64,000 nt of DNA, taken from a virus. The stretch lies in the IMG/VR virus record IMGVR_UViG_3300013118_000321, positions 1-64,000 of that record; one strand, 5' to 3'. Below are positions 18,838 to 28,925 of the stretch, one piece after another. Within the stretch, counting starts at the first letter, position 1, and each line of letters starts with the position of its first letter. The notes under the pieces are model-generated. The model was not told where the DNA came from and made no database searches. It worked only from the letters and a program-made list of their open reading frames with translations. The translations under genes were made by a program, and so were the position numbers.

Positions 18838-21051
18838 TTATAACCTCTTTATTGCATTGAGTCCATCGACCACCATTTGACCTGCATCCCTCTCTTTCAT
18901 AGATAGTTTCAAATCCGACTTTTTTGCTGCGATTTCGGCAACGATCTCTGTGATACCTTTTATCATCGTGGCCAAGGCGCCGTCTGCTTTAGCAGCATAA
19001 AACACATCATTCTTATCAAAAACGGGGGTCATATAATTGCGAGCAATGTTTGGAGTTGCCATAACTGGTCCCAGTGATTGGGCTGAATTTGAATCCTCAG
19101 TTGGGGCAGCTTGGTTTGTCCCTCTCCTCGCAACCGAACTAGCACTGAACTGTAAATCCGTACGTGCTTCGTTCTTGCCTGCCTTTACGTTGGATTTGCT
19201 TGAACCGCGAACCTTAGTGCCGCCAGGAAGTTTTAAGTTTGCATTGGCAACTGTTCCTTCCATCCTTTTTTGAATTTCATTTAAATTATCGGGACCTTTT
19301 TTGGTGCTGCCTCCTTTTGTTGGCCACTTCTTTTCACGTTCGTCCTGTATTCTTTTTTCACGCTCTTCTCCACTGGTACCAGCGAAGCTTGCGCCTGCGC
19401 CCATGCCAATAACTGTGCCAATTTGAGCCGCCGAGCCGAGCCCGAAAGTGTTCATAGCCATACCCATCATTATGCTCGAAAACAGAGCAATGTTATCAGT
19501 GAAAAAACTTATCATGCCCACGACGACATTTGTTAACTCCATCAAACCCTTCTCCCCGCCAATGGCATTGACGAGCATTCTAATCGCCTGCTCCATTGCG
19601 GCGTCTATCTTTGTAGCGACTGACAACTGGTCTGCGATCTCTGATTGGGTTCCTTGCATATCTGTCGCCACTGCATCAAGACCCTCCCTGTCACTCTCTA
19701 AAAGATCAGCTTCGGCGTCCATAAACTGCTTCAATTTTGCGACGTCACCGCCGAAACCCAATGTTGGTTCTTTTGCAAGTGCTCGCAATTCTCTTGCACT
19801 AAGTTCCTTGATCGATCTCCCTTCCTTAGCAAGGGAATCCATGATCACTTTTCTCTTTTCTGCTGGAGATTCAGCTGCTAGTAAGGCTTGAGCACTGACA
19901 AGAGGAGCACCGAAAGCAATATTGATGCTTTGGGCGAACTTTGCGGCGCCTTCAAATGTATCCATATTTTCATTCATTTGCAACAACTGGTTAACCTCTA
20001 TTCCCAGTTTCGCTGCCATAAATGCTGTGTCTTTGAATATCCTGCGGCCCAGTTCTGCCTCGAACCTGGCCAGAATCGGTTGGGCGTTCTTAAAATCTTG
20101 TGCCATCTCTTGTGGAGGGCGCCCCAGTGCTCTGGCTACGCCTGCAAGGTTGAATAGAAGATCTTTTGCCTGTTCTGGTGTTTGTCCCAGTGCCTTAACT
20201 TGAGTTCCAATAATCTGCGCCTGAGTGTCCATAGACACCCCTAGTTTGCTCAATGTACCTATACCAGCTGTCAATGCAACCAGTTGAGAGTCCTCTCCTG
20301 TGGTCAATTCCGAGAACGATAAAAAATTCTCTTTAAGAGAAGATGCAGCTTCGGCAGCAACTCCTTCGAGATTTGTACCTATTTGACCCATTGCGGCAGC
20401 TGCTTCACCAACATTTAACTGCTCTCTAGTGATTTGGGACCTTTGGAAGAGTGCTGCGCGTGCTTTGTCCATCCGCAACATTGTTTCAAACATTTTAGCG
20501 GTAATTGCAACTAGAACGTTTTGCCACTGCATTGTTTCCGCAATACCTTTGGTGAACCCTTCTAATAGACCTTTGCCTGATAAATTCTCCCAACCTTTTG
20601 ATAATCCAAAGGTAGCTTGCAACAACCTCTCGGCAGCTGCTTCACCTTTAGCTAATCCTTTATCGTAGTCTTCTTGAAGTTTGACTATTTTCTTGATTTC
20701 TTTATATCTCTTTCTGGCGGTTTCAAGTTCCTTTTCATCTACCTCATCCTGCGTGACCATAAACTCAATCTTTCTTTTTAGATCATATGCCTCTTGGCCC
20801 AAGAGTTCTAGTTTCTTCTTTTCAAGATCGATAACGCCTTCTATCTTATCTTTCTGTTCTGATAAGAGTCTATCTATGTCTTGGTATCTTTTTGAAAGTT
20901 CTTCTACACTTACTTTTCGGACATCAACTAATTGATCGCCCATCACTTCGGTAATTGCCTCAAGTAGTGTTTGGGCAAGTGCTGGATCTATTCTAGAGTT
21001 TGCAGCAGCTGCTTTGAGTTGCTCTATAAGTCTTTTACCCTGATCGCTCAT
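18838..21051 (-). CDS. Tape-measure-like protein, second copy
   Basis: 737 residues, mostly helical. A coiled-coil N-terminus (about 1-140) precedes a long Ala-rich helical region, a short hydrophobic stretch (about 505-555, VVGMISFFTDNIALFSSIMMGMAMNTFGLGSAAQIG) and a low-complexity C-terminus. Architecture and position fit a tail-length tape measure. It aligns with the upstream 875-residue protein: KMFETMLRMDKARAALFQ against KMFEQAKAVDEARAKLYQ, and LSKLGVSM against LKSLGVSV. It starts within the last codon of that gene (4-base overlap). T4 uses a single gp29. Which of the two sets tail length is unknown. Confidence 0.7.
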   Translation of the reverse strand: MSDQGKRLIEQLKAAAANSRIDPALAQTLLEAITEVMGDQLVDVRKVSVEELSKRYQDIDRLLSEQKDKIEGVIDLEKKKLELLGQEAYDLKRKIEFMVTQDEVDEKELETARKRYKEIKKIVKLQEDYDKGLAKGEAAAERLLQATFGLSKGWENLSGKGLLEGFTKGIAETMQWQNVLVAITAKMFETMLRMDKARAALFQRSQITREQLNVGEAAAAMGQIGTNLEGVAAEAASSLKENFLSFSELTTGEDSQLVALTAGIGTLSKLGVSMDTQAQIIGTQVKALGQTPEQAKDLLFNLAGVARALGRPPQEMAQDFKNAQPILARFEAELGRRIFKDTAFMAAKLGIEVNQLLQMNENMDTFEGAAKFAQSINIAFGAPLVSAQALLAAESPAEKRKVIMDSLAKEGRSIKELSARELRALAKEPTLGFGGDVAKLKQFMDAEADLLESDREGLDAVATDMQGTQSEIADQLSVATKIDAAMEQAIRMLVNAIGGEKGLMELTNVVVGMISFFTDNIALFSSIMMGMAMNTFGLGSAAQIGTVIGMGAGASFAGTSGEEREKRIQDEREKKWPTKGGSTKKGPDNLNEIQKRMEGTVANANLKLPGGTKVRGSSKSNVKAGKNEARTDLQFSASSVARRGTNQAAPTEDSNSAQSLGPVMATPNIARNYMTPVFDKNDVFYAAKADGALATMIKGITEIVAEIAAKKSDLKLSMKERDAGQMVVDGLNAIKRL

Positions 21052-23675
21052 GCACTGCCCCCATTAATGGCATAGACCCTACTTCCAACCTCTAATGAGA
21101 CTGAAGGGTCTATGTCTCTTAGTTTAATTAGACCTTTCCGTAAATTATCTAACTGCTCCAAAAGCACGCCGTCATGTTTTGAGTTCTCAAACTTTGCCTT
21201 CTTCATCGGAACTGGACTCATGGCAGTTAAGGTATCCTCGAACCCCATCAATTGTGATTGTGTCATCTCTTCAGCAACAAACTCCCCTTTTGCTCTTGCG
21301 ATATCCTTCGGGGACATGCCAGACTTCTTCATGTGCTGTTCATCCAACTTCAATTTCATACTTCCGTCTTCAATCCCCATCTTTACAAACATCGGAACAA
21401 GGACGTTGTCGGCGAAGGCGTGCCCAATACTAGACGAAGCGAGCAATCGACCAATGTAACTTCCCAGGAGACCACCTGCCATATAAGCAAGAGGTGTCAA
21501 GGCGACACCGAGACCAGGAGCAACATTTGCTAGTTGCACAATCCAACCGCCTGCCATGCCACCCAACCATCCGCCGAGAGCACCTGCAACTGCCTCTAGT
21601 ACCCCTCTGGCTTTACCTTTCACATCCAAAGTATCATCATTCAGAACCATTGCAGACTCACCTATTGCAAAAAGGGTTTCAACAATTGGGTACTTAGCGA
21701 GGGCAGCGAGCATTTTGCTGTTTGCTAATGCTTCACCCAACTTTGATCCATATTTAGCAAGAAGTCCACCGCCCGATTTCGCTCCCGCTTCGACTGCTTC
21801 GCCTGCAACAGTAGCTCCTATACTTGATGCTGCGCCTTTCGCGACATCATCAATACCACCTGCGGCCGATCCGGCTACCGAAGATGCGGCTTGAGTGGCT
21901 GCCTCGACGCACCCTGCTGCGCCTTTTGCTGTACCTGCTGCCCTTGCTGCGGCGAGCTGAGCCTTAAGTGTACCAATTTGTAACTTCATCCTTGGTATTC
22001 GCACGAAGTTATCGAATTTTGATTTCATGTATGCTGCGCTAACTGCCATCCCTGCCAAGGCAAGTGCTGGTATAGTTATCTTGGCATGCCTGGCCAAGAA
22101 TCCGACCGTTTTGGCAATAGCTGGCATGTGCTTGTTGATCTGGTTGTTAAGTTTTTGGATCAGTTCTGCCATTGCAGCATCGATTCGCTTGCTTTGGTCT
22201 AGTGTTTTTTCTGTATCCTTCTTAATCTCTTCATCCGTTGCTGCTTCGTCTAGATTAGCTACCTTAGCATCAAAATCTGCGAATTGCCCTCTAACTATCT
22301 TTTGAAAGTTTTCTGCACTCACCCCTGCAGACCCAAGATAACCCTGCATTGCGCGTTGAACGCGTTGATGTGGTACCCCGAACTGTGCTTCTGCTCTCTG
22401 ATATGCTTCTGCAATCAATCTCACCTTGCCAGATGCATCTGCAGCAAGAAGGGCAACCCCATTAACAAAAGATCCGCCCAATAATGAATTTAGTTTGGCA
22501 GCTGTCTTCAGGGCGTTTTCTGATGTGTCCAAATCTTCAGTTAAAGACATCAAATCTTCGATCTTTACATTTGTTGCTCTCGCTGTTGCGGCAAGTCTAG
22601 CAAACATTTGCGGTGCACGTTTCCCGAATCGAGCATATGTTGGTAAAGTTTTAGCAAAGGACCCAAGAGACTCTTTCTGAGTCATCCCATAGTCTTTGCC
22701 CATCTTATAAAGGGCCCTTACTGTATGGTCCATCTCTTCGGCATCCATCCCGATACCCTTTGACATGGCTTGGTATGAACTCCCCATTGCCGTAACAGAC
22801 ACTCCAAGGGATTTTAACCTACCAGACATATTGGCCATTCTAACGATCTCTCCAGAGTCTCTAAAATCCTTAAAAACCTTCATCTCGCTTTGAAGATCCG
22901 CTAATATTTCACCAGCAGCTGCTGGAGACCCAGGACCATACACTGATGCCAACTCTTGGCCAATATCCATCATCTCTGTTGTGAGTCCCGACAATCCAGT
23001 CTTCTGATACAGTTTTGCTCTTGCTTCATCTACTGCCTTAGCTTGTTCAAACATTTTCGTAAACACAGCAACCAGGATATTTGATGAGTTGACGGTTTTC
23101 TTGAGTCCTTTCCCAAATCCCTTGATCGAACCAATAATGCCGTCTGGGCCTGAAAAGGAATTACTAACGCCGAGGACTGACTGGGTCATCTTTACTGCTA
23201 TGGATTCGCCTTTTGCTAGCGACTTCAGCATGCTGTCATTTTCGTCTATTTCTTGCTTTAACAGTTTGTACTTTTCTTGTGCTCTTTTGGCAGCTTCTGT
23301 GTTCAACTCTCCAGCTATAGCATATTCTTCTATTTTGCTCTTTATTTTAGACATTTGAGATTGTGCGATCTGCTTCTTTACTTCGGAAGCCTCTTGAGTA
23401 TCCCACTCCAGATATTTGCCCGCTTTTTCACTATATTCTTTATCTTTCTTGAATTTCTCTAAGAGATTTCTGAAGTATTCACCTGATGATGTACCTCCAG
23501 TGGTGCCTCCAGATTTTCTTGATAGTATCTTTTCGTATTCGGATATTAAATCACTCAATAGAGCTTGATCAGAATCGGAAATCTCAGGAGAGGTTCCGTC
23601 GCCAGGGTTGTACTCACCCCCTTGTTCGAATTTCTTAAATAATTCTTTTAATTTTTGAGGGTTTATGAATGCCAT
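21048..23675 (-). CDS. Tape-measure-like protein, first copy
   Basis: 875 residues with a helical N-terminus (about 1-150), a central helical region related to the next gene, and an Ala/Gly-rich C-terminal half with several hydrophobic segments (about 520-760, such as ITIPALALAGMAVSAAYM and GGWLGGMAGGWIVQL). Such membrane-like segments are usual in tape measures, which may enter the host membrane at DNA ejection. It is preceded by the small gene at 23687 and followed with a 4-base overlap by the second copy. The pair probably arose by tandem duplication and then diverged. Confidence 0.72.
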   Translation of the reverse strand: MAFINPQKLKELFKKFEQGGEYNPGDGTSPEISDSDQALLSDLISEYEKILSRKSGGTTGGTSSGEYFRNLLEKFKKDKEYSEKAGKYLEWDTQEASEVKKQIAQSQMSKIKSKIEEYAIAGELNTEAAKRAQEKYKLLKQEIDENDSMLKSLAKGESIAVKMTQSVLGVSNSFSGPDGIIGSIKGFGKGLKKTVNSSNILVAVFTKMFEQAKAVDEARAKLYQKTGLSGLTTEMMDIGQELASVYGPGSPAAAGEILADLQSEMKVFKDFRDSGEIVRMANMSGRLKSLGVSVTAMGSSYQAMSKGIGMDAEEMDHTVRALYKMGKDYGMTQKESLGSFAKTLPTYARFGKRAPQMFARLAATARATNVKIEDLMSLTEDLDTSENALKTAAKLNSLLGGSFVNGVALLAADASGKVRLIAEAYQRAEAQFGVPHQRVQRAMQGYLGSAGVSAENFQKIVRGQFADFDAKVANLDEAATDEEIKKDTEKTLDQSKRIDAAMAELIQKLNNQINKHMPAIAKTVGFLARHAKITIPALALAGMAVSAAYMKSKFDNFVRIPRMKLQIGTLKAQLAAARAAGTAKGAAGCVEAATQAASSVAGSAAGGIDDVAKGAASSIGATVAGEAVEAGAKSGGGLLAKYGSKLGEALANSKMLAALAKYPIVETLFAIGESAMVLNDDTLDVKGKARGVLEAVAGALGGWLGGMAGGWIVQLANVAPGLGVALTPLAYMAGGLLGSYIGRLLASSSIGHAFADNVLVPMFVKMGIEDGSMKLKLDEQHMKKSGMSPKDIARAKGEFVAEEMTQSQLMGFEDTLTAMSPVPMKKAKFENSKHDGVLLEQLDNLRKGLIKLRDIDPSVSLEVGSRVYAINGGSA

Positions 23676-23686
23676 TTAGAAGTCCC

Positions 23687-23995
23687 CTACTTAAAAGGCC
23701 AAACTAAACCCGTATCTCTTTCAAAAGATTTGATTGACCTATCTAACTTGAATTTGTCTTTAAACGTCTTTGGATTGTTTAAACCATATTGAGACAAAGA
23801 AGAGAGGTACCTTTTTTCGCCTGCAAGCGTCCTGACAAAGGAATCCACCTGTGCTGGTGATCCTTTAACAGATACAGGAAAATATTCACCCGTAAATAGA
23901 GCGTCCAAGACCATTCTCAACCTTGCGCCCATAGCGACCAAAAAACTTTCGTCGATCTTTGTGAAGTCTATTACAATTGGTTCTTTCTTATTCAT
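23687..23995 (-). CDS. Small conserved-type tail-region protein, unknown
   Basis: 102 residues from ATG at 23995, which has GGAG six bases upstream; an earlier ATG at 24007 lacks a Shine-Dalgarno. The sequence begins MNKKEPIVIDFTKIDESFLV and contains LRMVLDALFTG and GSPAQVDSFVRTLAGEKRY. I do not recognise it. Its place between the gp26-like chaperone cassette and the tape measures suggests a role in tail assembly or a virion component, by position only. Confidence 0.7.
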   Translation of the reverse strand: MNKKEPIVIDFTKIDESFLVAMGARLRMVLDALFTGEYFPVSVKGSPAQVDSFVRTLAGEKRYLSSLSQYGLNNPKTFKDKFKLDRSIKSFERDTGLVWPFK

Positions 23996-24047
23996 AAACG
24001 TCTCCATTAGTAATTAGTTTGGCAAGTCAAAAGAGGATATTGTTTGT

Positions 24048-24227
24048 TTATTTCTTGATCTTTTCAGCTTCCTTGTTCCTTTCTTCAAAGTACTTGGAGA
24101 GTCTTTCCACAAACCACCTTCTAATGGTTATAGGTAGGTCATAAACATCGAAATAGTTCCAATTACCGTGCTGAACTAGATAAAATATCTGTTCGTGCAC
24201 ATGTAACATATAATCAGAGGTCAGGCC
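24048..24227 (-). CDS. Frameshifted C-terminal extension of the gp26-like protein
   Basis: A 59-residue open segment in the +1 frame relative to the gp26-like gene, entered at the seven-T run 24228-24234. It reads GLTSDYMLHVHEQIFYLVQH, then a charged helical end (ERNKEAEKIKK). The open frame upstream of the run reaches only a TTG at 24290 with an implausible Arg/Pro-rich product, and there is no well-placed independent start; an ATG at DYMLHV would make a truncated version. The layout matches tail-assembly chaperone pairs (lambda G/GT), in which a minority of ribosomes shift frame to add a C-terminal domain. A +1 or -2 shift would give a product of about 343 residues. Confidence 0.6.
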   Translation of the reverse strand, partial: GLTSDYMLHVHEQIFYLVQHGNWNYFDVYDLPITIRRWFVERLSKYFEERNKEAEKIKK

Positions 24228-25080
24228 AAAAAAACGTCGCCTCCAGGGGTACCTCCGTTTCGGCTTCGGCACCGCAATACATACACTCAAAATCTTCCTT
24301 GAGTCTTACAGTTGGAACAAGGGAAGCATAGTTCTTTCTCAAGAACCTAGAATCTCTCGCTGGCATTTCACCTATCATCTCATTCAAATCAGCTGGGTTT
24401 GCGATTTCGTCAATAGATACAATGATCATCTTTAAGAAGTCCGTCGTATTGGTTTCTGCCAACTTGTTCTTCTTCTTTGATGACATTCTACTGGCCATCC
24501 TAGATTCATCCCTAGACGTCAACAACCTAACAACAACATTTTGCCCTGACATAGGGAGAGTTGTCTCGAAGTGCCCTTGATGATTTGTCTTAAAATTCTC
24601 TGACTGTTCAAACTTCTCAAAATACTTATGATATTCTGATAGGTCAACTGTGATGTCACAGTCTGTATTGCACTCTGGGCAGGTTATCTTTACTTCATAA
24701 TCAGGCCCATACCCTGTTACTCTTGCAGCGACCATAATTGCTGACTTATCACCGATAAGCAGATCTGCTACCTGAATGCTTTGATCGACCATAATGTTCT
24801 GAATGAACTTATCAATTGCCACTCCCTTTCTTAAAAGAGCGGGAGATGTTAAGATATCTTCATCCCTGGCTGTCATGAATCTAATCTCAACTGTCTCTTG
24901 ACCGTGGAGAGGGTGATTCTGTGGATAAAACAGACCCCTAGACGGCAGTTCGACGAATTCGGTGTTTGCCGTTCTTCTTACTGCTTGTACTGGGGGTTGT
25001 GGACTTTGTAACTCCTCTGGAGCTGTTTGTTTTTTGGCAGGAGGCGCTTTGCGCGCCATCCTGTTCGAATTTCTACTCAT
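24214..25080 (-). CDS. T4 gp26-like baseplate hub / tail assembly protein
   Basis: 288 residues. ELPSRGLFYP (about 43-52), FMTARDEDILTSPALLRKG and the later VRLLTSRDES are typical of the T4 baseplate/gp26 family (PF12322 type). It has two possible zinc-binding Cys pairs: CPEC...C (about 135-142) and CMYC near the C-terminus. The N-terminal about 35 residues are basic and Pro/Gln-rich. ATG has GAGG six bases upstream. In T4 the protein acts in baseplate hub assembly. Near the 3' end the codons ACG TTT TTT TGG contain seven consecutive Ts, where a second frame is open downstream. Confidence 0.75.
   Translation of the reverse strand: MSRNSNRMARKAPPAKKQTAPEELQSPQPPVQAVRRTANTEFVELPSRGLFYPQNHPLHGQETVEIRFMTARDEDILTSPALLRKGVAIDKFIQNIMVDQSIQVADLLIGDKSAIMVAARVTGYGPDYEVKITCPECNTDCDITVDLSEYHKYFEKFEQSENFKTNHQGHFETTLPMSGQNVVVRLLTSRDESRMASRMSSKKKNKLAETNTTDFLKMIIVSIDEIANPADLNEMIGEMPARDSRFLRKNYASLVPTVRLKEDFECMYCGAEAETEVPLEATFFWPDL
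24228..24234 (-). other. Candidate programmed frameshift site (seven-T run)
   Basis: Seven consecutive Ts on the coding strand, read TTT TTT TGG in the gp26-like frame, five codons before its stop. Skipping one T (+1), or slipping back two, gives TTT TTT GGC and continues for 59 more codons. A -1 slip gives a stop two codons later, so only +1/-2 is productive. Polymerase slippage on the run could have the same effect. Confidence 0.55.
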
Positions 25081-25132: not shown

Positions 25133-25759
25133 TTAAACTCCTGGTGCTAATCCAGTAAGTCCTGCCTGTGCGCCTTGCCCAGACTGTTGAACCTGACGAA
25201 GTGCGCCCTTATCTGAAACGCCCTTAGTATCAAGTCCTGCCCAATCAAATCTCATCGTAAGTTCAACGTTTACAAGATCGTCAGACTCATAATCAAGATC
25301 ACCAAAGTTAACACTCTTAATCCAAGGATTATATAGAGACCAGGTCTCGATCGGAGATCCATTCTCATCAATCGTGTGAATATACACTCTACCACCCACT
25401 GCGCTTGTTGCCTGCTTCTTAGAGAAGGTAACAATATTGCTCGCCTTACCTCTACCCAGAGGGTCATTCAAGAAGTTGTGCGGTGCAACGTAACCAGACA
25501 ATTCAATCAAGTCCAACATGGTCTTTGATGCATCTGGATCAACTGGATCAACAAGAGTCATACTGATCTCTTCCCACTCCAATCTCCCAGGGTAATAAAA
25601 CTTATAGTTAATAAAACTATGCTCAGACTCCGATACCGAAAAATTGGGTTTACCCGTTGTCTTCACGATCCACTGCGGGATACCATTAAACGATAACAAA
25701 AATCTGTATTTTCTCTTTGGCTCAATTGAAGCATCTGACCAAAATTTCTGACTTGCCAT
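25133..25759 (-). CDS. Tail tube protein (gp19-like)
   Basis: 208 residues. The family pattern is clear: KYRFLLSFNGIPQWIVKTTGKPNFSVSESEHSFINYKFYYPGRLEWEEISMTLVDP, then a beta strand ending with TWSLYNPWIKSVNFGDLDYESDDLVNVELTMRFDWA. Gp19 hexamers stack to form the inner tail tube through which DNA passes. The C-terminal 20 residues are Gln/Gly/Ala-rich. AGGAGG lies 9 bases before the ATG, and a perfect palindrome containing the CTATTTA motif lies just upstream, between sheath and tube genes, so the tube may have its own late promoter for high expression. Confidence 0.92.
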   Translation of the reverse strand: MASQKFWSDASIEPKRKYRFLLSFNGIPQWIVKTTGKPNFSVSESEHSFINYKFYYPGRLEWEEISMTLVDPVDPDASKTMLDLIELSGYVAPHNFLNDPLGRGKASNIVTFSKKQATSAVGGRVYIHTIDENGSPIETWSLYNPWIKSVNFGDLDYESDDLVNVELTMRFDWAGLDTKGVSDKGALRQVQQSGQGAQAGLTGLAPGV

Positions 25760-25802: not shown

Positions 25803-28800
25803 TTAATCTTCAAATGATGCACCTGAATTGGTGATCATGAAGTCGATCGCAATGAACTCAATTGCTCTGGCAGGCTTCAAGAAGATCTTTGCGTACATGA
25901 TATTTCTATCAATCAAATCTGGTGTCGTTGTTGTCTCATCAAGTACAACCTTGAATTCCGTCAAACCAAATCTAGACTTTACACCGTCCAGGAAAGGTTC
26001 TACAGAACCACGGAATCTATCCCATGTTGCTTGTACGTTCTGATCGAAAAGCAACGTTGCTGCTCTTCTTGACACCTCTTTCTTGATGTAGATCATCAAG
26101 CGACGTACATTAATTCTATCAAGTGCTGAAGGCGTTGCTTGAAGCGTCTTCTGACCAAACACCACAATGCCCTCTGCTGGGAACTGCGCGATTGGGTTAA
26201 TATTCGCCTCATATAGATCGTCTCTCTCTTTCGAAGAAACTCTCTGAGATACTGCAAGTACTGGCAGACCGCCAGCACCCTCTGACAATCCACCTCTGGT
26301 GAACCCTGCAGGTGCGAACCATAACTCAGATCTTGCCTGAGTGCTACCAAACGTTCCAAGTGCCACAACTGACGGTGGTACCCAAATCTGTCGGTCGCTG
26401 ATCTGGTCAGAGACCTTAACCCAAGGATAGAAAGCACAAGCATAACTTGAGTTCAACCCTCTGTTCTCTATATTGTCAACTGCTGTTCTGACCTTTGAAT
26501 TCTGAATTCGGGTCTTGAAGTCATCAGTATTCTCTGTTGATGGAATATAACCGCCTGCCTCGATATCAATGACAGCGAGAGTGTCTGCGCGGTCCTCACA
26601 CGTTCTAATCATGTGATTTGTTATTCTCGTGTTCGTGATGCCTGGGATGGCAAGAGCGTTCATCTCTACCACCTCTGGATCTGCGACAGCGTCGATGCCG
26701 CGCTTAAGTGTCGCGATTTCGTATGCTGTTGTCTCGTCACCAGAAGAGAACTTGGAATTTCTAAATGGTTCCTTCTCCGTAATATCAAAACCATCAAACC
26801 CACCATATACTGGGCAAGTGAATTTTGCGAACCCTGCCTTAACTAGGTCCTTATATCCACCTCTCTTGGCGGTGTAGGACTTGTTGAGTGCTCTAGATCC
26901 ACTGACATATACCGCTGTGCCAACATCTACTGGAGTGATTGACCCCTGGTTCTTACCAAGGTTAGATGCCAGAGATCCCGACTTACTTACTATGATAAGG
27001 TCATCCAAAGTGAACATGAATGAATTCTCTACCTTTGCGGATGCTGCAGAGGCGTCATAAACACCTGCGCCCAAGAACCCACTACCCATGCGGCGAGTAA
27101 TGTCGACGAACGAAGGATCGAACTTTGTATCTGTTGGTGTTCTGTATGTCGAAACACCAAAGAATGAGTTCTTCGGATTTGACAGACCCTCTTCAGATGC
27201 TGAAAGTCTCATTGGTAATGTTGGATAGACCAACGATGCAGTCAATTTCTGTGGGAATCCCAAATAAGGGATGTTCGTACTACCTGCTGACTTGATACCT
27301 GTTGCGCTTGTGCCAGCGACTACGTCTGACGATGCGGCTAAAATAGCGGACCCAGTTGCTGCGCCCATAAATTTACCTTCGCCATTACTTCCAGAATCAT
27401 GTACGGTAAATGCGCCAAATCCAGTTGCAACCTTGGTTTCGCCTGTAGCGATTGTACCCGTCTTGTATCTAGGCGGACCATAGAAACCGAATGGCATACT
27501 GATCGGATCGGTAACACCGTTATCAACATCCTGATCAACCAACACTCTAAAGAATGAAGAGTTGTTGTCATAATTACCGTAAACCCTGTATCTCTTGTCT
27601 GTTTCGTCCCACTCTCTGTACTTGTCACCGACTTTACGTCCGATATAGTTACTAGAGTTAGGGTTTAGATTACACTGTGAGAATCTCTCCAAAACAACTG
27701 GCCTTGCATCGTTGTCAGAAATTCTTCTGACCAACACTGAAAATGTTCCGTAAGGATCTACGTCATTACCTGCCTTTACATCGGTAATTGAAACTTTTAA
27801 GTTTCTGGTGTTCCACCCACCGTCGTTAATACCAACAAATCTAAACAACTTCTGCATCGCCGCTGCTTTGTATCCAGTACCAATAGCATTTAAATCCTGA
27901 GAAAAGATCCAAGGCGTTCTAGAGTCCTGGTGGGCGATTGCTCTTACCATGCCGCTTGTCGTACTATGAAGAGGTACAATCATAGCGCATAGGGAACTAT
28001 CAGCAGATAACTCGCCTTTGTGAAGCGATCCACTGGTTCCTAAGAATCCGTGCGTGTCTTTAGCAAATCTGTCGAATGACTCTCCCAACCAGTATTTTGT
28101 TAATCCTGCTGCCTGAGTCGTGTCACCGTTTGTCAGTGTAGGGTTCGTGTTGAACACCTTTCTAATATATTTGTCCGAATTTCTATCAAAGTTGAAGGTT
28201 ACTCTTCTTTCTGCCTTTGCGCCGTCTGTAAGAAGTGCTGAGAACTCCATTTTTGATGAATCCGTCGATTGTACAAGTACGTGAGAACCAGTGCCGTGGA
28301 TACGTGCGCCTGGCCAGTGTGCTTTTTCACCAGCAAGGTGTCCAATGGTGCCCGTCAATGCCATTGCGCCCTTTTGGAAGTACCAAACAGCGGCAAGGTT
28401 ACCTTCCATTGCTCTGTTTTGGTTTAGTTTCTCACCTTGTGATGTGATTGAGGCATTTTCCCCAACTAAACTGCTACGTCGGTCAACACCGCCCGTAGAA
28501 AAAAGATACAAACCATAAACTGCTGATTTGGTGTCATCGACAGCAGATGCATCCAAAGACTGATCTAGCGTCCAACCTGCGGCGCCAGCTGAAGTTGCTT
28601 GCGGGTCTTCTGTGCCCAACAATCTAACGACATTAACAGGCCCCGCGTTTTTCAAAAATGCTTGGGCAGCATATGCGGCGTAAGTTGGCGCAGTTTCGTT
28701 GCCTTCTCTCCAAACATCACCACCCTTACCTCCTGGGATTGGGTTGCCAAACACTTCAATGAATTGTGACATGCTATCGACCCTAAGAGGGATCATACCT

Positions 28801-28925
28801 GGACCTTTTGCTAGGCGACCAACGATCGTTGGACCTACGTCCTCTGGCTCTCTTGCCAATTGTGAGTTATCGATCTCATTGAGAAAGATACCTGGGGATA
28901 CAAATTTAAATCTCTTTACAGACAT
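25803..28925 (-). CDS. Contractile tail sheath protein (gp18-like)
   Basis: 1040 residues, larger than T4 gp18 (659). The N-terminus KFVSPGIFLNEIDNSQLAREPEDVGPTIVGRLAKGPGMIP and the C-terminus VVLDETTTTPDLIDRNIMYAKIFLKPARAIEFIAIDFMITNSGASFED are classic for T4-type sheaths; the latter forms the contractile core domain with NVRRLMIYIKKEVSRRAATLLFDQN. The middle (about 130-700) holds the extra domains facing outward and accounts for the added length. Sheath subunits store and release the energy that drives the tube through the host envelope. GGAG precedes the start, and a CTATTTA motif lies 56 bases upstream. Confidence 0.95.
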   Translation of the reverse strand: MSVKRFKFVSPGIFLNEIDNSQLAREPEDVGPTIVGRLAKGPGMIPLRVDSMSQFIEVFGNPIPGGKGGDVWREGNETAPTYAAYAAQAFLKNAGPVNVVRLLGTEDPQATSAGAAGWTLDQSLDASAVDDTKSAVYGLYLFSTGGVDRRSSLVGENASITSQGEKLNQNRAMEGNLAAVWYFQKGAMALTGTIGHLAGEKAHWPGARIHGTGSHVLVQSTDSSKMEFSALLTDGAKAERRVTFNFDRNSDKYIRKVFNTNPTLTNGDTTQAAGLTKYWLGESFDRFAKDTHGFLGTSGSLHKGELSADSSLCAMIVPLHSTTSGMVRAIAHQDSRTPWIFSQDLNAIGTGYKAAAMQKLFRFVGINDGGWNTRNLKVSITDVKAGNDVDPYGTFSVLVRRISDNDARPVVLERFSQCNLNPNSSNYIGRKVGDKYREWDETDKRYRVYGNYDNNSSFFRVLVDQDVDNGVTDPISMPFGFYGPPRYKTGTIATGETKVATGFGAFTVHDSGSNGEGKFMGAATGSAILAASSDVVAGTSATGIKSAGSTNIPYLGFPQKLTASLVYPTLPMRLSASEEGLSNPKNSFFGVSTYRTPTDTKFDPSFVDITRRMGSGFLGAGVYDASAASAKVENSFMFTLDDLIIVSKSGSLASNLGKNQGSITPVDVGTAVYVSGSRALNKSYTAKRGGYKDLVKAGFAKFTCPVYGGFDGFDITEKEPFRNSKFSSGDETTAYEIATLKRGIDAVADPEVVEMNALAIPGITNTRITNHMIRTCEDRADTLAVIDIEAGGYIPSTENTDDFKTRIQNSKVRTAVDNIENRGLNSSYACAFYPWVKVSDQISDRQIWVPPSVVALGTFGSTQARSELWFAPAGFTRGGLSEGAGGLPVLAVSQRVSSKERDDLYEANINPIAQFPAEGIVVFGQKTLQATPSALDRINVRRLMIYIKKEVSRRAATLLFDQNVQATWDRFRGSVEPFLDGVKSRFGLTEFKVVLDETTTTPDLIDRNIMYAKIFLKPARAIEFIAIDFMITNSGASFED

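Follow-up and report, generated by a model that had tools for sequence, protein, structure and literature searches.

A conserved, probable +1 slippery site in a gp26-like tail chaperone gene of contractile-tailed phages, with sister clades in the -1 frame

One gp26-like gene probably gives rise to two tail assembly chaperones—a short protein, TAC-N, and a longer fusion, TAC-NC—through a +1 slip of the ribosome at TTT TTT TGG, a reading to which we assign a probability of roughly 0.88. The gene lies in a 64,000-nucleotide stretch of viral DNA, the window (positions 1 to 64,000 of IMG/VR record IMGVR_UViG_3300013118_000321, which is 105,155 bases long). The basis for this reading is the sequence of the locus, its conservation in relatives, a switch of the conserved reading frame where the slip is proposed, and the finding that relatives keep no common start codon for the second frame.

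The chaperone gene and its neighbours

TAC-N is encoded on the minus strand at 24214..25080 (ATG at 25080; 288 aa). It belongs to PF12322 (T4 base plate protein; E=1e-11, 45.4 bits against a curated cut-off of 24.5) and matches phrog_150 (baseplate hub; E=1.1e-13), and annotated relatives carry the family under the label baseplate hub. The PF12322 match is the only one in the virus record. Five IMG/VR contigs encode the TAC-N protein at 100% identity. A blastn search of the phage collection with 5 kb of the window gave no match.

The minus-strand 3' end of the gene reads GCG ACG TTT TTT TGG CCT GAC CTC TGA. As the first-pass annotation had noticed from the letters alone, the gp26-like frame passes through seven Ts (24228..24234) close to its TGA stop (24214..24216), and a shift there opens 59 further codons. 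The stop follows four sense codons after the proposed P-site codon, TTT at 24231..24229, with TGG at 24228..24226 in the A site. The additional stretch, TAC-C, spans 24048..24227 on the minus strand and is closed by a TAA at 24050..24048; after a +1 shift its frame begins GGC CTG ACC TCT GAT TAT ATG, and the predicted TAC-NC would be 284 + 59 = 343 aa long. This second frame is open from 24305 to 24048 (minus strand). The earlier statement that only a +1 or -2 shift is productive also holds in the window, because the -1 frame closes at TTG GCC TGA (checked as well on a relative, L002, that is identical over the query). A canonical -1 heptamer, X XXY YYZ, is absent from the site in the window: the T run is preceded by G (ACG TTT TTT) and the -1 frame is closed. 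T runs of at least seven occur four times on the minus strand of the 64 kb. Searched alone, the TAC-C of the window has no significant PHROG or Pfam match.

Upstream of the chaperone gene, also on the minus strand, are a tail tube gene (25133..25759; phrog_4542, E=8.9e-26; PF06841, E=8.7e-5, under its cut-off) and a tail sheath gene (25803..28925; PF17482, E=3.7e-9; phrog_23, E=6.9e-67), giving the order sheath-tube-chaperone. Downstream, a candidate tape measure gene of 875 aa (21048..23675, minus) is named by its position: PHROG gave no match, Pfam none that passed its cut-off, and BLASTP no similarity (E 0.22) to the annotated tape measure stretch of a relative, L011. In L011 and two other relatives (L015 and L016) the annotated tape measure comes after the chaperone locus. 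The first-pass annotation had placed the gene upstream of tape measures; a tube gene is found upstream of it, and the identity of the tape measure in the window is positional only. The interval from the chaperone pair to this candidate holds a 106-aa ORF (23687-24007, minus) that matched nothing in Pfam or PHROG.

Reading frame and slippery site across relatives

How general is the out-of-frame second domain among related phages? Relatives were gathered from IMG/VR with one sequence and three alignments, and 11 phage-collection records were added. The resulting loci are a sample, because three IMG/VR scans each kept the best 80 of at least 600 stretches. From a starting set of 260 loci plus the window, we left out L021 (T4) and two loci without a stop (L006 and L009), which gave 258; removal of 11 with too little sequence 3' of the stop gave 247, and merging those with identical sequence around the stop yielded 208 distinct loci, the window being merged with L001. 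Phages P-SSM2, S-PM2, HTVC008M, phiM12, RM378, and T4 were examined separately from these 208.

A TAC-C domain profile, built from 14 seeds and then iterated, matched just downstream in 199 of the 208 sampled loci before iteration and in all 208 after it. Controls on the other strand, on reversed letters, and on the hub interior gave 0 loci at E<1e-3 with both profiles. The domain lies in the +1 frame in 130 loci, in the -1 frame in 78, and in frame in none, and the two frames overlap in all 208. By source, the A1 set was entirely +1 (79/79) and the A2 set entirely -1 (64/64), the A3 set held 45 +1 and 9 -1 loci, and the phage records 6 and 5, respectively. TAC-C length was tallied for 129 of the 130 +1 loci. 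The earlier proposal of a tail-assembly-chaperone frameshift is thus supported by a second domain that is always present and never in frame, by the gene order, and by the switch of conserved frame described below. The PF12322 profile matched six of seven records and missed the Flavobacterium immuto protein at E<=0.1; that protein was found by tblastn with the window protein.

Public annotation of TAC-C is uneven: it appears as a shortened ORF in L011 (2830-2940) and L016 (2809-2928), is unannotated in L015 (2708-2939), and stands as a separate gene in L012 (2731-2967) and L020 (2705-2914). A scan of bacterial genomes returned one locus. On a Deltaproteobacteria MAG contig (L274, 4001-4900), a gp26-like gene with a tail-tube-like gene beside it is accompanied by a TAC-C-like stretch that, judged by eye, is in the -1 frame, with no obvious T heptamer adjoining; this is perhaps a bacterial contractile injection system or a prophage using the same frameshift trick.

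Every one of the 130 +1 loci has TTT or CTT in frame with T or C as the next base, and 3 to 7 sense codons separate this codon from the hub stop. The window's own form, TTT TTT TGG, accounts for 113 of them; the others are TTT CTT TGG (5), TTC TTT TGG (3), TTT TTT TAC (3), and six single forms. The 115 seven-T runs among these loci all start at codon base 1. At 60% identity the +1 loci form 77 clusters, and in every one the second and third bases of the P-site codon are T, with T (74) or C (3) as the next base, so that the P-site codon after a slip is always TTY. Before a slip it is TTT in 72 clusters and CTT in 5. NTT is uniform here even though TTC supplies 165 of the 640 Phe codons of these genes. 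Of the 70 clusters with Pro just past the A site, 68 use CCT, a codon that accounts for 245 of 840 Pro codons in the rest of the genes. Shared kinship among clusters means that neither count is of independent events. As far as sequence comparison can tell, conservation of the +1 site in the relatives is far beyond chance.

Where does double coding begin? Third-position variability follows frame 0 up to the site and the +1 frame after it. Among Pro codons, only CCT permits Leu in the +1 frame, and the Gly-Leu and Asp/Glu-Tyr codons ahead of the window-type ATG are conserved in the +1 frame. The third-position switch and the CCT bias therefore indicate that double coding starts at the site, upstream of that ATG.

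In each of the 78 -1 loci a canonical heptamer lies no more than 72 nt from the stop, a count that takes the nearest match and has no chance control: T TTT TTC in 64, A AAT TTT in 10, and T TTT TTT in 4. Their T run starts at codon base 3 in 75 of 78, and the codon phase of the run thus tracks direction (TTT TTT Txx for +1, xxT TTT TTC for -1). The comparison of related phages that the first-pass annotation had offered as a check shows both frames and a slippery site at every sampled locus. Outside the sample, the -1 form and a single PF12322 match were seen in each of the cyanophages P-SSM2 and S-PM2, the pelagiphage HTVC008M, and the rhizobiophage phiM12. With the TAC-C profile the cyanophages and HTVC008M score E 1e-4 or better; phiM12 reaches only E 0.1, and its assignment was therefore made by eye. 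In Rhodothermus phage RM378 the site is TTT TTT TGG and the +1 frame is open, but the profile has no match there, so its +1 assignment rests on site and frame.

On a quick tree of the N-domain (124 rows, site removed), the states +1, -1, and two genes require 3 changes, where 2 is the minimum and shuffling gives a mean of 38.2; of its 121 inner branches 55 are weak, and the branches to RM378 and T4 gp51 are long. Direction of shift is, on this sequence evidence, a clade trait. In a small -1 clade (L182, L186-L188, L192, L196, L197, L200, L214, and L013), T TTT TTC lies at least 10 codons ahead of the stop, and beyond it the short protein ends in a basic tail (RRKK). This clade falls in the tree near the +1 phages Listeria LIS04 and Streptococcus GXN1 and may for that reason represent a direction switch.

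Taken as one joint claim, we consider it likely that a broad clade of contractile-tailed phages makes its chaperone through a conserved +1 shift at UUU_UGG, where the A site is occupied by a sense codon and no stimulator is known, that sister clades shift -1 at the orthologous site, and that moving the codon phase of the T run by a single base decides which way the shift goes. The +1 clade would include the window's marine-type contigs, Flavobacterium, Microcystis, and Bacillus SP-15-like phages, and probably Rhodothermus phages.

Searches for stimulators of the shift gave no conserved element. Downstream RNA structure in the 77 clusters had mean z values of -0.27 (5 below -2) and -0.42 (4 below -2), with no structure conserved. 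The window has a Shine-Dalgarno-like GGAGG (24240..24244, minus) 8 nt before the P-site codon, a possible stimulator; such matches occur at 9 of 130 +1 loci, where a background of 1.9% predicts about 2.5, and we do not call them conserved because several of the nine are close relatives of the window. Predicted folding of the coding sequence from 70 to 6 nt upstream of the +1 site slightly exceeds that of shuffled sequences, at a mean z of -0.70 with 12 of 77 clusters below -2.

The proposed slip and its rivals

We infer slippage, its rate, and the function of the products from the lambda model, as described in a passage of PMC5009743; the +1 step in this phage and the ratio of the two products are likewise part of the proposal. 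Most ribosomes would stop at the TGA and release TAC-N, the predicted partner of the tape measure protein. A minority would slip +1 with the P-site Phe tRNA on the second TTT, re-pairing one base on (with TTT again), then read GGC as the next codon and continue to the end of TAC-C to make TAC-NC. Across the relatives the slip would take place on NTT_T, with a Leu tRNA in the P site in some of them and with TGG or a different sense codon in the A site. By analogy with lambda G/GT, the TAC-C domain of TAC-NC would deliver the tail tube protein to the tape measure.

Four other explanations were rejected on comparison of the relatives. A -2 slip, as in phage Mu (PMC5009743), would make the same fusion with one extra Phe at the junction, and the seven Ts of the window would let it re-pair on TTT, as would the sites of 118 of the 130 +1 loci. 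In the other 12 the -2 codon counted from the recorded P site is not TTT. Five of these have a CTT P site and are ambiguous, and L015 permits -2 from its second TTT; at the remaining six (L010, L017, L036, L053, L189, and L218), however, the -2 codon is ACT, TCT, or TCC, which by eye would mispair, whereas +1 pairing holds. A Mu-type slip thus fails in 6 of the 130 +1 loci. The relatives favour +1 over -2 as far as pairing in their sequences indicates, and we regard the -2 route as unlikely.

TAC-C could instead be a separate protein, made from an internal start or by re-initiation at the ATG 4 nt past the TGA. The first-pass annotation had seen no credible start for the second frame. The window in fact has two candidates, a TTG at 24290 with AGGA upstream and the ATG at 24207..24209 (minus), which has no Shine-Dalgarno-like match close upstream; what stands of the claim is that neither is conserved in relatives. 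A C-frame ATG, GTG, or TTG lies within 25 nt of the hub stop in 59 of 130 +1 loci (ATG in 39), and annotators give the second frame as its own gene in Mel-JY01 and PBECO4. Yet 71 of the 130 lack any such start codon within 25 nt of the stop; in 46 the second frame holds none upstream of the site, and in 14 (11 of 77 clusters) it holds none as far as 25 codons beyond the site. Because start codons are missing in so many loci, re-initiation is not the shared mechanism; the conservation in the +1 frame of codons ahead of the ATG, and a domain in frame at 0 of 208 sampled loci, also speak against a separate protein, which we hold to be distinctly improbable. In the window itself, re-initiation at ATG 24209 could still operate.

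The T run itself suggests two further explanations. RNA polymerase might slip on it and produce mRNAs with a changed number of Us, and a seven-base homopolymer is present in 115 of 130 +1 loci. In 11 of the 130, however, the longest T run at the site is just 3 or 4 long with frame and domain still kept, and runs of 3 or 4 are too short for polymerase slippage; we give this explanation very little weight. Homopolymer runs are also prone to errors, and a sequencing or assembly error might have split one gene. Against this, five contigs encode the identical protein, and the +1 relation recurs in 130 distinct loci and is also seen in records of the phage collection, Bacillus SP-15 and Flavobacterium immuto among them, which leaves the error explanation a negligible chance.

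Fold, the T4 pair, and known frameshift systems

An AlphaFold2 model of TAC-N built from 70 sequences had a mean pLDDT of 92.7 and no match in the PDB at E<=0.001. The HK97 tail assembly chaperone 2ob9 ranked second in Foldseek, weakly (E 0.87, prob 0.44), and second in VIA-align 2 (Z 5.7 over 89 residues, rmsd 7.2), where such a Z may mean only a common arrangement; the highest Z (6.6) belonged to an uncharacterised protein, 3fgx_A. Among viral models, 61 matched at E<=0.001, many of them named baseplate hub or baseplate hub assembly protein. By sequence, the best hit of the alignment among solved structures was a de novo protein at E 0.21, and T4 gp51 gave nothing.

In T4, genes 26 and 51 are divergent neighbours. 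Both proteins match PF12322 across the full length of that family, and gp51 has an extra C-terminus and matches phrog_634. The window TAC-C has no match to this gp51-type C-domain family. Used by itself, the present TAC-C profile gives gp51 E 1.5, worse than a 31-aa chance ORF at 0.0039. The present profile does match a cyanophage TAC-C profile (prob 95.7), and gp51 is reached at E=3e-5 with a profile built from four TAC-C sequences of cyanophage type. Through this chain of profile links, T4 gp26/gp51 looks like a two-gene version of the single frameshifted gene. Such a two-gene form in T4 agrees with the title of the 2022 paper by Vladimirov et al. and with a passage citing it (PMC10885494).

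Why does this matter? The relatives provide 77 clusters of natural +1 sites with orthologues that would slip -1 on nearly the same T run, so that the determinants of direction and efficiency become directly testable. The reading also fills in the C-terminal half of a tail assembly protein, a part that is missing or shortened where several phages are publicly annotated.

Conserved +1 programmed frameshifts are few in bacteria and phages compared with -1. The +1 site of bacterial prfB (RF2) is CUU_U with a stop codon in the A site. The window shares the prfB-type NUU_U slip in the P site (TTT T), and 5 of 77 clusters have the same CTT then T (TTT in the other 72); unlike prfB, the window and 71 of 77 clusters hold the sense codon TGG in the A site, and the clade has no conserved Shine-Dalgarno-like stimulator. 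Lambda gpG/gpGT, likened here by layout alone, is also a short and a long chaperone with slippage near the 3' end of a gene that follows the tail tube gene, but lambda shifts -1, whereas the window phage is contractile and would shift +1. T4 gp26/gp51 shares PF12322 with the window, as two divergent genes rather than one frameshifted gene.

Several of these systems are described in the literature. The prfB frameshift is mentioned in PMC10885494. A passage of PMC5009743 states that tail genes of different phages use -1, -2, and +1 shifts, and describes a tail gene of the haloarchaeal myovirus HSTV-2 as very likely +1; by that description, HSTV-2 would share direction, gene type, and myovirus morphology with the clade. 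The -2 shift of phage Mu given there reaches the same frame as +1, but fails in six relatives of the window. In the titles and abstract openings searched, we found no +1 class or direction switch in T4-like tail chaperones. The tail assembly chaperones of T4-like phages have been published (Vladimirov, Gautam, and Davidson, Virology 2022), and frameshifted or two-gene chaperones with poly-T -1 signals are reported for these phages in passages of PMC10885494 and PMC12846349. They belong to the same gp26/gp51 family as the window gene and follow the same short-plus-long logic, with a -1 shift in the citing papers vs. a proposed +1 in the window's clade. The short-plus-long product pair is therefore already known, while the +1 class and the direction switch may be new.
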